Positions 11,571 to 42,854 of a stretch of 64,000 nucleotides of DNA are shown piece by piece. Every line of letters begins with the position of its first letter. Position 1 is the first letter of the stretch. The stretch is taken from contig SYHD01000084.1 in the NCBI GenBank assembly GCA_005799265.1, positions 1-64,000 of the forward strand. Reading direction: 5' to 3'. The DNA is from Planctomycetia bacterium. Lineage in GTDB: Bacteria; Planctomycetota; Planctomycetia; Gemmatales; Gemmataceae. A program made the translations under genes and the position numbers. The notes under the pieces were generated by a model, which did no database searches, had not been told where the DNA came from, and saw only the letters and a program-made list of their open reading frames with translations.

Positions 11571-11631
11571 GCAGTGGTCAGTGGTCAGTGGCGAGAAAAT
11601 CCATGGGCATTCACTGACCACTGACCACTGC
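11571..11631. repeat. 7-bp-period inverted repeat element (copy C), perfect 20-bp arms
   Basis: gcagtggtcagtggtcagtg ... cactgaccactgaccactgc immediately after the TAA stop codon. Confidence 0.9.
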
Positions 11632-34464: not shown

Positions 34465-35117
34465 CTCAAGATCCGTAAGCCGATCCGCGGCGAACGGCAG
34501 GGGTCGGCGTGATACCGCAAGCGATTTGGAAGGTCAAGCGCATCTGTCCATGGGGCAGGTTGGCAACATGCCCCTCAAAACTTGACTTCTTGACTTCTCC
34601 GGGCCTGTGAAGACTCTTGAGTCAGGAAAGCGGGTTGGGTATAATTCCAGGGCTAGCGCGCACTCTGGGCGATTTGGGTCGACTTGCGCCCGGGCCTGAT
34701 CGATTCATATACCGTCCTTCGTGTGGTCTCTTGTTACCACTCTTGGAGGACGAATGTATTGTTTCACCCGATCCGGCACAAAACAGCCTCAGTCGGAAGC
34801 AACCTTCTCCCTCGCCTTGAACGGTAGCGTAGCCTGCTCCAAGCCCGGGTTTCTTTCCCTTCGGCGATGCCTCGCCTCCACCAATTTCTTCCGACGCTCG
34901 GCATATCGAGTTGCCGGATCGCCGGCGCGGGCGAACTCCGACAACAGGGAGACCAACGTCAGCAGGGCGATGCAGACTTGTTTCGACCTGTCGAGCCTCC
35001 TGGGCGATTACTCACCTTCGGCAGCCAGATGGGAATTGTCCTATAGTAATGTTCAACCGGAGAGCTCGCAATATTCGCTTCATCGCTTTTCCCCGGCTTC
35101 CCGCTGGAGACGCTCGG

Positions 35118-36254
35118 ATGTCTTGCTTCTGTCCGAAAAAACTCCAGGCCATGCAGGCAGACTTCAAGCTGCCCAAGATCGATTTCGCGCTGCCGGCCGG
35201 CAGTATCGGCGCCATGGCGAAACTGTCCGCACTGATGAGCGCGAAGGCGTCAGCCTCGGCAACTGCCGCGCTGTCCGCGAAGGCGATGGCGGATTTACGC
35301 GTGACGTTCTCCGCCACGGCGAACATGAAGTTGTCCCTGCTCGCATCCGTCATGGCCAGCTTCAAAGCGAGCGGGAGCCTGTCGATGGGTGCAGGCATGG
35401 GCGGCATGCTCGGTTCACTCAACATGCACTGGCCGCATCTGAAGGGATTGCTCCTCCCCAATCTTCCTCACCTTCCCGCCATCAATGCCCTGGGGCTGTT
35501 AGCCGCCCTGGTGGGCAATCTCAAAATGAATTTGAAGGTTGACCTCACTTCCCCGAAAGCGCTGATGGAACTGAAGGCGAAACTCGAAGCGATCATCGTG
35601 GCCAAGGCGGAACTGGAGGCGAAAGCGGCATTGGCAGCGCAGGCGCGCGTCAGCGCGAGCGCCGCCCTCGCGGCGAACCTCAGTGCGACCGCGGCGCTGG
35701 CCGCTTCCGCCCAGGCTTCGTTCGCTGCCGACATGGCGGTCTTGATGAAAGGCTCGCTGGCGTTGAGCCTCCCCTTCAAGCCCCCGGATCCGCTGAGCCA
35801 GCTGGGGGCGATGATCCAGGCCATGCTCGATCTCAACTTGCCGGCCATGACCGTCCCGCCGTTGGAACTGGCGCAGCTATCCGGTTTGTTGGCAGCGGTT
35901 GCGTCGATCAAGACGGGGCTGGGTATCAACCTGCTCGCGTCAGGTTCGGCCTCGCTGGTCGCCAGCTTCCTCGCCAAGGTCGACTTGAAGGCGGTGATCG
36001 CTCTGGCGGCCTCCCTCGACATGAAGGCGAGCGCGGCGATGTCGGTCCAGGCCAAGGCGGCGGCCAGCGCAGCGTTGGCCGCACAAGCCAAAGTCGCCGG
36101 AGCGCTATCGGCCAAGCTGGACGCGATGCTGAACCCCCTGAGCGTGGGGCAGCTGGGTTCCTTGTCGGTCGCCATGCTGCTGGGCGGCCTGCTTGGGTTG
36201 TCCGGACTCAAGCTCCCGAAAAGCCCCTGCGAGATTTGCGTTTTCTTGAAGTGA
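35118..36254 (+). CDS. Ala/Leu/Ser/Lys-rich low-complexity protein with terminal Cys pairs
   Basis: MSCFCPKK...KSPCEICVFLK*; about 378 aa of AKASASATAALSAKAM-like sequence. Confidence 0.55.
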   Translation: MSCFCPKKLQAMQADFKLPKIDFALPAGSIGAMAKLSALMSAKASASATAALSAKAMADLRVTFSATANMKLSLLASVMASFKASGSLSMGAGMGGMLGSLNMHWPHLKGLLLPNLPHLPAINALGLLAALVGNLKMNLKVDLTSPKALMELKAKLEAIIVAKAELEAKAALAAQARVSASAALAANLSATAALAASAQASFAADMAVLMKGSLALSLPFKPPDPLSQLGAMIQAMLDLNLPAMTVPPLELAQLSGLLAAVASIKTGLGINLLASGSASLVASFLAKVDLKAVIALAASLDMKASAAMSVQAKAAASAALAAQAKVAGALSAKLDAMLNPLSVGQLGSLSVAMLLGGLLGLSGLKLPKSPCEICVFLK

Positions 36255-39069: not shown

Positions 39070-39141
39070 AGAGTCACTCCTGACTTTGACACAAATCGCT
39101 CTTGCCTGTATGATGCTGAAGCCCACATTGAAAGACCGCGC

Positions 39142-40077
39142 ATGTTCAAATGGCTGAGCCGATTGTTTGGTTGGTCGAAGCGCACCAAGGAGAAGCAGGC
39201 AACGCTTGCGAGCGTGGGCCTTGCGTCTCTCGAGCGCATCGTGCTTACCGATGGCGTCGCCCGCACGCTGTTCGAGGATTTCGCCGAGCATCGCCGCTCG
39301 GCGCGCGGCGACGAAGAGATCGGCTGGGTGCTGATGGGCCTACGCCAAGGCACCGAGGCGGTCGCTCTGGCCGCCCTGCCTGCCGGCGCCGAGCGCGACG
39401 CTGGCGCCGCGCACGTGCAATTCAACAGCGAAGCTCAGGCCCTGGCGAGCCGCATCATTCGCCAGTCCGACAAGCGGCTCGCGATCATCGGCGTCGTCCA
39501 CACCCATCCGGGCAGCATGCGCTCACCCAGCAGCGGCGATCTGCACGGCGACAGTCAATGGGTCGCCAATCTCCGCGGCGGTGAAGGCGTCTTCGCCATC
39601 GGCACGGCCGACGCGCGTACCCAGGGGCGAATCGACGCCAGCAATATTCAGGCGTATGGCGATCTCTGCTTCAGTTGGTGCGCACTGGGCAAGGGGGATG
39701 CGCGTTACCGCTCGCTGCCGGTGCAGGTGGCGATCGGCAACGATCTCGCGTCTCCGTTGCGCCCCGTGTGGAACGTGATCGAATCCCATGCGGAGCCTTT
39801 GAACAAGCTGAGCCGGCTTTTCGCAAAGGTGGAATATGAGGCGGCCAAAATTGCGGACGCCCCGACGCTGGTCGTCAAGATCGCCCTCGCCGAGCCGCGC
39901 CAGCAAATTCACCTCTTGTTAAGCGATACGGGCGCGCGGTATTATTGGAGTGTCGACAAGGAGCTGATCGCGGTCGGCGCCGACGAAGGGCAACTGGACC
40001 GCGCCGTGTTTCTCATCCTCGCGGAATTGGCCAAGGGGCCGATCATCAAGACCGCGGCGATGCCAACGTTCGTTTGA
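39142..40077 (+). CDS. JAB/JAMM (MPN+) metalloisopeptidase-like protein
   Basis: DEEIGWVLMG Glu plus VVHTHPGSMRSPSSGD = HxHx7Sx2D JAMM motif. Confidence 0.85.
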   Translation: MFKWLSRLFGWSKRTKEKQATLASVGLASLERIVLTDGVARTLFEDFAEHRRSARGDEEIGWVLMGLRQGTEAVALAALPAGAERDAGAAHVQFNSEAQALASRIIRQSDKRLAIIGVVHTHPGSMRSPSSGDLHGDSQWVANLRGGEGVFAIGTADARTQGRIDASNIQAYGDLCFSWCALGKGDARYRSLPVQVAIGNDLASPLRPVWNVIESHAEPLNKLSRLFAKVEYEAAKIADAPTLVVKIALAEPRQQIHLLLSDTGARYYWSVDKELIAVGADEGQLDRAVFLILAELAKGPIIKTAAMPTFV

Positions 40078-40108
40078 GAACAAGTCGAACCCCGCAAGGA
40101 GACCCAGC

Positions 40109-40309
40109 ATGGACTTTCGAGCCGTCAACACCGAAGAACGCCAAAAATTAATCGACGCCCTGCGCGGCAACGCCCAGGACAGCCTCGCGATCCTGATGGA
40201 TCGGCGCGACACCTCGTTCGTGGGCGCCAGCGAGGAGATCAGCGACGAGGAGGTCATCTCCGCGATCCAGTCGGTGCCGTGCCATTACGCAGTGGTCAGT
40301 GGCCAGTAG
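40109..40309 (+). CDS. Small protein of the ubiquitin-like operon; C-terminus read into the repeat element
   Basis: MDFRAVNTEERQKLIDALRGNAQDSLAILMDRRDTSFVGASEEISDEEVISAIQSVPCHY then AVVSGQ* encoded by the element. Confidence 0.5.
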   Translation: MDFRAVNTEERQKLIDALRGNAQDSLAILMDRRDTSFVGASEEISDEEVISAIQSVPCHYAVVSGQ

Positions 40310-40365
40310 TCAGTGGTCAGTGACCATTGAACCCTCACCACTGACAACTGACTACTGGCAACTGC
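40289..40365. repeat. 7-bp-period inverted repeat element (copy D)
   Basis: gcagtggtcagtggccagtagtcagtggtcagtg ... ccactgacaactgactactggcaactgc. Confidence 0.9.
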
Positions 40366-40367
40366 TT

Positions 40368-40793
40368 ATGAGCCTCCTCGACAGCGAAACCGGCAAGAGA
40401 CGCCTGCTGACTATCGAGATCCCGATCCTCGAGCGCTACAATGGGGAGCGCGCCGAGGAGTACAAGATCAAGGTCGTCAAGCACGGCAAGAGTTTGTTGT
40501 TGCGCTATGCTCTCAAGCCGATGCACAACATCTATCAGCTGGAGACGCGGCTGCCCACGGAATACCCACTCCTGGCGCCGGAGACGCGCGTCTTGACGCC
40601 GTTGAAGATTTGCCCTCATCTTCTGGAAGGGCAGCTCTTGTGCATGTGGCGGCAAGGCAGCACGCGCGAGACGAGCCGTTGGGACCCGGCGAAGTTCACC
40701 TGCGTGTTCGCCGTGCAGGCAGCCTGGCGCTGGCTGGCGTGCTATGAGGTCTGGCACGAAACCGGCGAATGGCCGTTGCCCGAGGCCGTGTAG
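40368..40793 (+). CDS. E2/UBC-like ubiquitin-conjugating-enzyme fold protein
   Basis: LPTEYPLLAPETRVLTPLKICPHLLEGQLLCMWRQG...WDPAKFTCVFAVQAAWRWLACYEVWHETGEWP: bacterial E2 pattern with H..(x)LC catalytic-Cys region. Confidence 0.75.
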   Translation: MSLLDSETGKRRLLTIEIPILERYNGERAEEYKIKVVKHGKSLLLRYALKPMHNIYQLETRLPTEYPLLAPETRVLTPLKICPHLLEGQLLCMWRQGSTRETSRWDPAKFTCVFAVQAAWRWLACYEVWHETGEWPLPEAV

Positions 40794-40802
40794 AAAGCTT
40801 TC

Positions 40803-41606
40803 ATGGCGCACCTCTTCCAGGTCGGCGCGGGCTCGGGCGGCATGACCGTCCTCGATATCGTGTGCCGCGATCCGCGCCTCACGCACGTCACGCTTGTTGA
40901 GCCCGATATCTACAAAGCGCACAATGTGATACGCCATCCATTTCCCATGTCCGCCGTCGATTCGTTCAAGGTCGATTTCGCCAAGAATTGGCTTGAAGAA
41001 CGCCGGGCCGATTTGCATGTCAAGACTCTGCGCTGCAACCTGATGGATTCGGCGTTCGGTGAGCCAATCGAAGAAGCCGTCCGCTCGTGCGATCTTGGTA
41101 TCTGTGCCGCGGACAACGAGCCGGCGAAGTTTTTCTTTGACGCCTTGATGCGGCGGCACAAGAAGCCGTGGACGCTCGGCGAAGTGCTGTCGGGCGGCAT
41201 CGGCGGGTTCGTGCACTGGTTCGTCTCCGACGGGCCGTGCTATGGCTGCGTCGCGAGTCATCTGCGCCGCACGGTCAAGGTTGACGACGGCAAGCCGCCC
41301 GATTATTCCGCGCCGGGCGGGCCAGCGCCGGAGACGACGATTCCCGCGAGCCGGGCGTCCATCGAAACGATCGCCGCCTTGCACGCCCAGATCACGCTGC
41401 AGCTCTTGACGCACGGCAAAGACTATGCTCCGGGCTTTTCCAGTCTGCTGTTCACCCTTGAAAAGGTTCCGGGCATTTTCGACGAGGCCTATCGCGCCCA
41501 TCGCTTTCGCGTCGCGCGCGCCGCGGACTGCTTGATCTGCCGCGAGAACGTGAATCCGCACGATCTTGATCGCGCTCTTGACGACGCGCTGGCACGTCTG
41601 CAATGA
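40803..41606 (+). CDS. E1/ThiF-like adenylyltransferase
   Basis: FQVGAGSGGMTVLDIV nucleotide-binding loop, VEPDIYKAHNVIRHPF, Zn Cys pairs CYGC...CLIC. Confidence 0.85.
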   Translation: MAHLFQVGAGSGGMTVLDIVCRDPRLTHVTLVEPDIYKAHNVIRHPFPMSAVDSFKVDFAKNWLEERRADLHVKTLRCNLMDSAFGEPIEEAVRSCDLGICAADNEPAKFFFDALMRRHKKPWTLGEVLSGGIGGFVHWFVSDGPCYGCVASHLRRTVKVDDGKPPDYSAPGGPAPETTIPASRASIETIAALHAQITLQLLTHGKDYAPGFSSLLFTLEKVPGIFDEAYRAHRFRVARAADCLICRENVNPHDLDRALDDALARLQ

Positions 41607-41669
41607 TCGTGAGATAAGAGTGTGGGCCGGATTGGCAACCCGGCCTACGGTCCCACGATACCATTGACC

Positions 41670-42854
41670 ATGACGCAATCGACTACACGCAACGCCGGTC
41701 TGCACGTCCGCTATGAGAAGGCGGGGCTGGTGCTTGACGCGCTGCCGATCCCGTGGAACGCCGACGCGGTGATCGTCGAGGCGAATGTGCTTCTCCCGGC
41801 GAATGCCGCGCGCGATAAGCACGACTTCACGCTGTGCCTTGTTGCCGATGGACCCTCCATGCCCGCGGAGCTCATCGTGCCCGGCAAGAAAATGGCGCCC
41901 GTACGCGTTCTCTTTCGCGTGCCGACGCCGGCGCAATCATCTACCGCCCATGTTTCTTGGCGTGAGCATGCCCTCGGGCAGGTCGAGATGCCGATCATCG
42001 CCAAGGCCGCGTTCGTGGACGGCGTTGGCGTCGAGCTGGCGAGCGTTCATGCGCTACTGGGCGCGGATACGGTCGCGGGTCGGGCGTTCGTGAATACGCA
42101 GGTGAAACACCTGTTCGCGTCCGCCATCGTGCGGAGCGTGGGTCCGTTGGCGGCGGCGCAGGATCTCGATCTGCGTGTCGCAATCGAACCCGAGGATGGC
42201 GGCGGCGGTGAGACGTCCATCTCGTTCACGAGCGAGCAACGCCTGGCGAGGCAAGCTCTTGTGATCGCCCCCTTGCCCAAGTTGCGCGGGGTCGGCGCCT
42301 ATCGCATATCCTGGCACGTTGCCGATCGCTTGCTGCATACGCAGCTCGTGCGCTGTGTGTCGAAGAAAACGTTCCAGCGTTCGCTGCGCATCTCCGCGAC
42401 GCGCTTCATGGTCGAGCAGGATGACGATTCGATCCACACGCTACGCAGCCTGCCCGCGCGCGACGGCAAGCTGATCGTGGACGGTTTCCGCCGTGTCGTG
42501 CCGTGTTTCTTGGTGTCGAGCGGCGAAGCGGGCATGGCCGGTATCGCGCCATTCACCGTGCGCGCTCTCGTCGATAACGTGCCGACAACGCTCGGCATCG
42601 AAGAAAGCCTCATCATCACGGACGGCCCGACTCCCGTTCTGCTCGGCTCCGTTGCGGCCAACGAACTCGGCCGCATCAAACACTTCACGCTTGCGACCGG
42701 CGATACGAATCTCGGCAACCTCGCGCTGCTGCCCGCTCCGCCCGCTGATTTCACGTCCGAGGGAGGCTTCGTGCCGATGGACGATTACCTGTGGACCCCC
42801 GCTGCCGAGGAACAACTGGGCGAGCGACTTGGGAAATTGCTTGACGAGGGGTGA
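41670..42854 (+). CDS. Unknown protein, last gene of the ubiquitin-like operon
   Basis: ATG at 41670, about 64 bp after the E1 gene, same strand; no family recognised; ends ...KLLDEG*. Confidence 0.6.
   Translation: MTQSTTRNAGLHVRYEKAGLVLDALPIPWNADAVIVEANVLLPANAARDKHDFTLCLVADGPSMPAELIVPGKKMAPVRVLFRVPTPAQSSTAHVSWREHALGQVEMPIIAKAAFVDGVGVELASVHALLGADTVAGRAFVNTQVKHLFASAIVRSVGPLAAAQDLDLRVAIEPEDGGGGETSISFTSEQRLARQALVIAPLPKLRGVGAYRISWHVADRLLHTQLVRCVSKKTFQRSLRISATRFMVEQDDDSIHTLRSLPARDGKLIVDGFRRVVPCFLVSSGEAGMAGIAPFTVRALVDNVPTTLGIEESLIITDGPTPVLLGSVAANELGRIKHFTLATGDTNLGNLALLPAPPADFTSEGGFVPMDDYLWTPAAEEQLGERLGKLLDEG

Follow-up and report, generated by a model that had tools for sequence, protein, structure and literature searches.

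A Gemmatales operon that joins E1-, E2- and JAMM-type enzymes to a candidate non-ubiquitin protein tag

Operon organisation and enzymes

The window analysed was a stretch of 64,000 nucleotides (positions 1 to 64,000, forward strand, of contig SYHD01000084.1, assembly GCA_005799265.1) from a planctomycete of the order Gemmatales. Five open reading frames (ORFs) occupy 39142-42854 on the plus strand and encode, in order, a JAMM metalloprotease, a small protein, an E2-like protein, an E1-like adenylating enzyme and a 394-residue protein. A first-pass annotation made from the letters alone had proposed this compact same-strand operon; it was confirmed with all five ORFs present and at about the positions first assigned; for the last ORF, ATG 41670 (394 aa) replaces GTG 41622 as the most likely start. 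The evidence points to the small protein as the key part of the operon, and the invariant tail of this 60-residue protein, which is not ubiquitin, suggests an unrecognised protein tag.

The JAMM/JAB metalloprotease (39142-40077, plus strand, 311 aa) matched Pfam Prok-JAB (2.8e-10), with E59, H120, H122, S130 and D133 conserved. The HxHx7SxxD motif that had been read in it was borne out: together with the upstream catalytic Glu, its residues vary scarcely or not at all across 33 aligned orthologues. The motif was intact in 38 of 41 loci, and two of the other three are cut by contig ends.

The E2-like protein (40368-40793, plus strand, 141 aa; active-site Cys92 at 40641-40643) matched PADLOC E2 models (best 5.6e-9) and had no Pfam match. 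Its previously noted H...LC region is invariant, and the catalytic Cys and the His are kept even across distant relatives. A search of PDB sequences with the E2 profile gave sub-significant matches only, mostly to eukaryotic E2s. The protein is read as a probable E2 from the profiles, the invariant His/Cys region and a weak UQ_con match of one distant relative.

The E1/ThiF-like enzyme (40803-41606, plus strand, 267 aa) matched Pfam ThiF (1.3e-12). All residues aligned with MoeB N70, R73, K86 and D130 are kept, and the two Cys pairs described earlier proved to be four invariant zinc cysteines. The crossover-loop catalytic cysteine is absent from every E1 aligned; the SCVEAG region of MoeB aligns with PETTIPAS.

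The 394-aa protein (41670-42854, plus strand) was modelled by AlphaFold2 (AF2) as three beta-sandwich domains followed by a C-terminal helix (predicted local distance difference test, pLDDT, 90), with Ig/macroglobulin-like matches in the PDB. It has a conserved C-terminal motif. A hidden beta-grasp domain was considered and rejected on the basis of this model. Neither this protein nor the small ORF had a family match in Pfam, PADLOC or the other profile searches of the window proteins, and comparison of the neighbourhoods of the loci revealed no sixth conserved gene around the operon, ubiquitin-like or other. The earlier statement that the operon holds no recognisable beta-grasp ORF was thereby supported. 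The first pass had also given the small ORF and the 394-aa protein equal weight; the former emerged as the key part, and the equal standing of the latter was not upheld.

The small protein and its invariant tail

The small ORF spans 40109-40309 on the plus strand. Its conserved part (40109-40288) encodes 60 residues, the length of the protein in most relatives, and the window copy has 66. In 61/61 named loci it immediately precedes E2, far beyond chance, and it was found in 75 genomes. Median dN/dS (the ratio of nonsynonymous to synonymous substitution rates) was 0.16 and variation was highest at third codon positions. This ratio places the protein under purifying selection and, with the conservation in 75 genomes, rules out a spurious ORF.

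The conserved part ends in SVPCHY (codons at 40271-40288, plus strand). SVPxHY was present in all 75 genomes, with x being Cys in 60, Val in nine, Ser in five and Thr in one, and its codons show synonymous change across genomes. Conservation over the last six residues was 0.97 for the small protein, against 0.10 for JAMM and 0.46 for the 394-aa protein; the ends of E1 and E2 scored 0.81-0.83 on fewer sequences. The N-terminal residues of the small protein are as conserved as its tail (0.98 vs 0.97).

The stop codon follows Y60 exactly in 61 of the 75 genomes, and in the other 14 the protein continues with 1-6 variable residues (AVVSGQ in the window; A, G, AG, AGI, AGV, GR, KL or NL elsewhere). 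The six extra residues of the window copy arose because a palindromic repeat (40297-40364, no strand assigned; DNA hairpin z -5.4) sits at its stop codon. Repeats of the CAGTGGTCAGT type occur twice in the window, at 11572-11630 and 40297-40364, and the latter copy displaced the stop codon.

The AF2 model of the small protein has a helix at 8-24, strands at 28-30 and 37-40 and a helix at 46-54 (pLDDT 71; predicted template-modelling score, pTM, 0.42). With moderate confidence the predicted fold is not beta-grasp. A PDB fold search with this model returned nothing at E <= 0.001. None of 57 members of the small-protein family matched Pfam Pup; C-terminal residues in the family are Tyr, Gly, Leu, Arg and others.

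Distribution and inheritance

Scanning of named genomes with the E2 profile yielded 61 loci, mostly titled Gemmataceae, Gemmatales or Planctomycetota, and including Limnoglobus roseus, Zavarzinella formosa and a Gemmata isolate. Two titles (Bacteroidales, Kuenenia) probably belong to misassigned metagenome-assembled genomes. All five genes were present in 33 of the 61 loci, and contig ends account for part of the remainder. Six genomes without E1 at the E2 locus keep it elsewhere, beside the 394-aa gene in all five of these that were inspected.

Of 105 genomes from the order to which the window belongs, 75 were found to carry the small protein. E2 was found in those 75, with one weak match of another kind besides; E1 turned up in those 75 and in one further genome, where it sits on a 1.7-kb contig. 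The three genes are thus near-identical in presence and absence, far beyond chance, and the genes do co-occur in other genomes, as the first-pass reading required. Nearly every carrier has one copy of each. Some genera mix carriers with near-complete genomes that have none of the three. The small-protein profile matched none of 398 other planctomycete genomes sampled. E2 identity drops with kinship, as expected for vertical descent. The operon is a single-copy, vertically inherited module of Gemmatales.

JAMM occurrence and C-terminal extensions

JAMM was found in 54 of the 75 genomes that carry the small protein. One genus of the order (g287, 16 genomes with the system) keeps the small protein, E2 and E1, and no JAMM was found in it, making it a natural JAMM-less version. 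JAMM is present in each of the 14 genomes whose small protein runs past Y60, and in none of the 21 JAMM-less genomes does the protein extend beyond that residue (Fisher p = 0.008, a value that ignores shared ancestry, the JAMM-less members belonging to four genera only). Confinement of extensions to JAMM-bearing genomes is what a trimming protease predicts, and the association is suggestive only.

Distant relatives

Related operons were reached through E2-like matches elsewhere in the phylum. Locus L137 encodes JAMM, a 65-aa ORF ending FARHYAGR, E2 and E1; locus L139 encodes a 74-aa ORF ending RRHGG, followed by E2 and E1. The two small proteins show kinship with one another and, via L137, with the Gemmatales family (hhalign E 8e-5 and 3e-4). 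That the HYAG and HGG tails are the older form is speculation. The ORF after E1 in L137 was considered as a homologue of the 394-aa protein and left unproven (E 0.017).

A second layout, which combines a small ORF, E1, E2 and JAMM with an additional E2-like protein bearing a fused Phd-like domain, was seen at locus L138, beside a STAND NTPase gene, and on a Mesorhizobium plasmid (L145), where MBL and patatin genes are also present. Both look defence-like. Their small proteins end in GGEYYIEG and GGEY, respectively. Sequence comparison detected no homology of these to the Gemmatales protein; layout and terminal Tyr alone are shared. The fusion itself (L145 4344-4874, L138 6370-6882) joins a Phd/YefM-antitoxin-like domain to an E2-like domain and sits between E2 and E1. 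At corresponding places L138 has LCIF and the plasmid copy LSIF, so the latter seems to have lost its E2 cysteine.

No separate small ORF accompanies the E2 and E1 relatives at loci L124, L140 and L141; the signal for a fused small domain in the E2 of L140 and L141 was not significant. In these two loci (genomes G073 and G111) the E2 and a JAB-E1 fusion protein lie directly beside CRISPR (clustered regularly interspaced short palindromic repeats) Cas2, and in L140 also near a RAMP gene, so that a CRISPR neighbourhood encloses a pair of ubiquitin-type enzymes. A Vibrio plasmid match was an ordinary MoeB. No useful relatives came from searches of viral contigs and phages.

Proposed mechanism and alternatives

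On balance we favour, with moderate confidence, a chromosomal conjugation system in which a dedicated 60-residue, non-beta-grasp protein takes the place of ubiquitin. JAMM would trim any residues after Y60, and the small E1 would adenylate the free C-terminal carboxylate, normally that of Tyr60. Cys92 of E2 would then attack the adenylate directly and form a thioester, because E1 has no catalytic cysteine of its own. E2 would hand the small protein to a target amine, with the three-beta-sandwich protein perhaps serving as scaffold, target or E3-like partner, and JAMM, where present, would also reverse conjugation.

The proposal builds on the enzyme families, the intact JAMM, E1-adenylation and E2-cysteine residues, the near-obligate co-occurrence and the invariant tail. 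From these we infer that the small protein is the activated and conjugated species, that transfer runs from adenylate to E2 and that the 394-aa protein may have a part in the process. The remote operons support it, since they repeat the layout as JAMM-small-E2-E1 (tail HYAGR) and small-E2-E1 (tail HGG) with small proteins that are detectably homologous. A precedent exists in the cyclic-oligonucleotide-based anti-phage signalling system (CBASS), where Cap2, which unites E1 and E2, conjugates a protein that lacks a beta-grasp fold, using a conserved residue at that protein's C-terminus (PMC10097602, PMC12355090). In CBASS operons with full Cap2/Cap3 the C-terminal residue of cGAS shows conservation, and it is the one that becomes conjugated (PMC10097602); reasoning from an invariant C-terminus, as done here, follows this case.

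Several points weigh against this proposal. The main difficulty would be the usual terminal residue, a bulky Tyr: in CBASS, changing the terminal Gly to Ser, Val, Arg or Trp blocked conjugation, and of the residues tested Gly or Ala alone was tolerated (PMC10097602). A textbook E1-to-E2 thioester relay is ruled out because the E1 cysteine is missing. JAMM was not found in 21 of the 75 genomes, the test of its association with extensions ignores shared ancestry and draws on four genera with JAMM-less members, the small-protein model is of only moderate confidence, and the three E2 and E1 relatives named above have no separate small ORF. The complete picture is held more tentatively, with slightly more doubt than assent: a dedicated 60-aa modifier with no kinship to either the ubiquitin fold or Pup, which E1 activates through a C-terminal Tyr and which goes straight to E2 without an E1 thioester, forming a near-core modification system of Gemmatales with mobile relatives elsewhere.

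The small protein could instead bind E2 stably and non-covalently, as activator, adaptor or chaperone, with its tail as a binding motif and with a beta-grasp protein encoded elsewhere as the modifier. The strict position of the small ORF beside E2 rather than E1 speaks for this, as do the bulky Tyr at most tails and the wider relatives that manage without the ORF. We consider it unlikely, since the neighbourhood holds no other conserved gene and since a binding motif leaves unexplained the variable residues after the invariant end, their restriction to JAMM-bearing genomes and the HGG and HYAG ends of relatives.

Anti-phage defence of the Bil/CBASS type, the analogy first drawn for this operon, concerns purpose and is compatible with the favoured conjugation mechanism. 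E1, E2 and JAMM all match models of a defence database best, and distant relatives adjoin patatin, MBL or STAND genes. Within Gemmatales the operon is near-core and single-copy and tracks kinship, with neither a toxic effector nor defence genes among its conserved neighbours; the analogy was not sustained there, and such a purpose is judged improbable. Least credible of all is a pathway like those of ribosomally synthesised and post-translationally modified peptides, in which E1 would act like MccB on a precursor-peptide C-terminus, JAMM would cleave and a small molecule would be made from the tail: the E1 profile does match MccB (1.4e-4), which adenylates a peptide C-terminus that is not Gly, and the C-terminal residues are among the most conserved, but an E2 with intact cysteine is obligate, the N-terminal residues are conserved as highly as the tail and no exporter or tailoring enzyme is found among the conserved neighbours.

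Comparison with known systems

The operon fails the defining tests of type II CBASS, BilABCD and Pup. With type II CBASS (Cap2 E1-E2 fusion, Cap3 JAMM and a cGAS/DncV-like nucleotidyltransferase, CD-NTase) it shares E1, E2 and JAMM chemistry, its best PADLOC matches being E2, E1-E2 and JAB models, and possibly the conjugation of a non-beta-grasp protein through a conserved C-terminal residue. It differs in that E1 and E2 are separate genes, in the window and in relatives, with no Cap2-type fusion; that no CD-NTase or effector is among its five conserved genes; and that it has a dedicated 60-aa partner, an E1 without the crossover-loop cysteine and core-like inheritance. Weak E2 relatives in the same order and phylum (L092, L125, L126, L154-L157) are standalone CBASS-type E2s beside nucleotidyltransferase or patatin genes, as judged from ORF sequences and positions; beside them there is no JAMM, no small ORF of the Gemmatales family and no credible E1.

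BilABCD has the same four-part logic of E1, E2, JAMM and modifier, and its JAMM trims the modifier precursor (PMC11354881). BilA consists of two ubiquitin-like domains and BilD of two adenylation domains plus a Cys domain (PMC11354881), whereas the E1 of the Gemmatales operon has a single domain of 267 aa and lacks that cysteine. The BilC model matched the window operon at E 0.027 only.

Pup and UBact are bacterial tags of about 60 aa without a beta-grasp fold, as the small protein appears to be. Pup is attached by a glutamine-synthetase-like ligase and has a Gln/Glu end. The partners here are E1, E2 and JAMM, the family has no Pfam Pup match, and a PafA-type ligase was absent among the operon's conserved neighbours, the only place covered.

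The operon classes 6a-6e of Iyer et al. (2006) also bring E1-, E2- and JAB-type genes together (PMC1779556). Class 6a has an E2-E1-JAB fusion with an MBL gene, 6b and 6c have E1-E2 fusions, 6d has a beta-grasp ubiquitin-like protein with a helical protein and 6e a poly-ubiquitin-like protein; none is described with a small ORF of this kind (PMC1779556). No prior description of such an operon was found in these classes or in the searchable literature, which excludes preprints and most subscription papers, and an earlier description is possible. The first-pass suggestion of an undescribed subtype was supported and sharpened: the operon matches no named subtype that could be tested, and the novelty lies in the small protein.

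The operon is a concrete candidate for a second case beside CBASS, its cargo being its own small protein instead of an enzyme. It raises the question of how E1-E2 chemistry works without an E1 cysteine, in a system kept as a near-core planctomycete trait and not as mobile defence. Small proteins and a sharp prediction for the tail make the model easy to test.

Other features

At 34911-36254 of the window lies a 447-aa ORF with a high content of Ala, Ser, Leu and Met; it has no Pfam match, and overlapping opposite-strand ORFs make its reality uncertain. Fixed gene context was rejected as a clue to function, as homocysteine methyltransferase and DUF1501 neighbours recur in only a few loci. One large extra cluster of neighbours was set aside as apparently the result of reading the wrong strand of a common, paralogous pseudopilin family. 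A sigma-70-like promoter, TTGACA-17-TATGAT (39086-39114, plus strand), a consensus match only, lies 28 bases before the JAMM start codon and agrees with the consensus at 11 of 12 positions.

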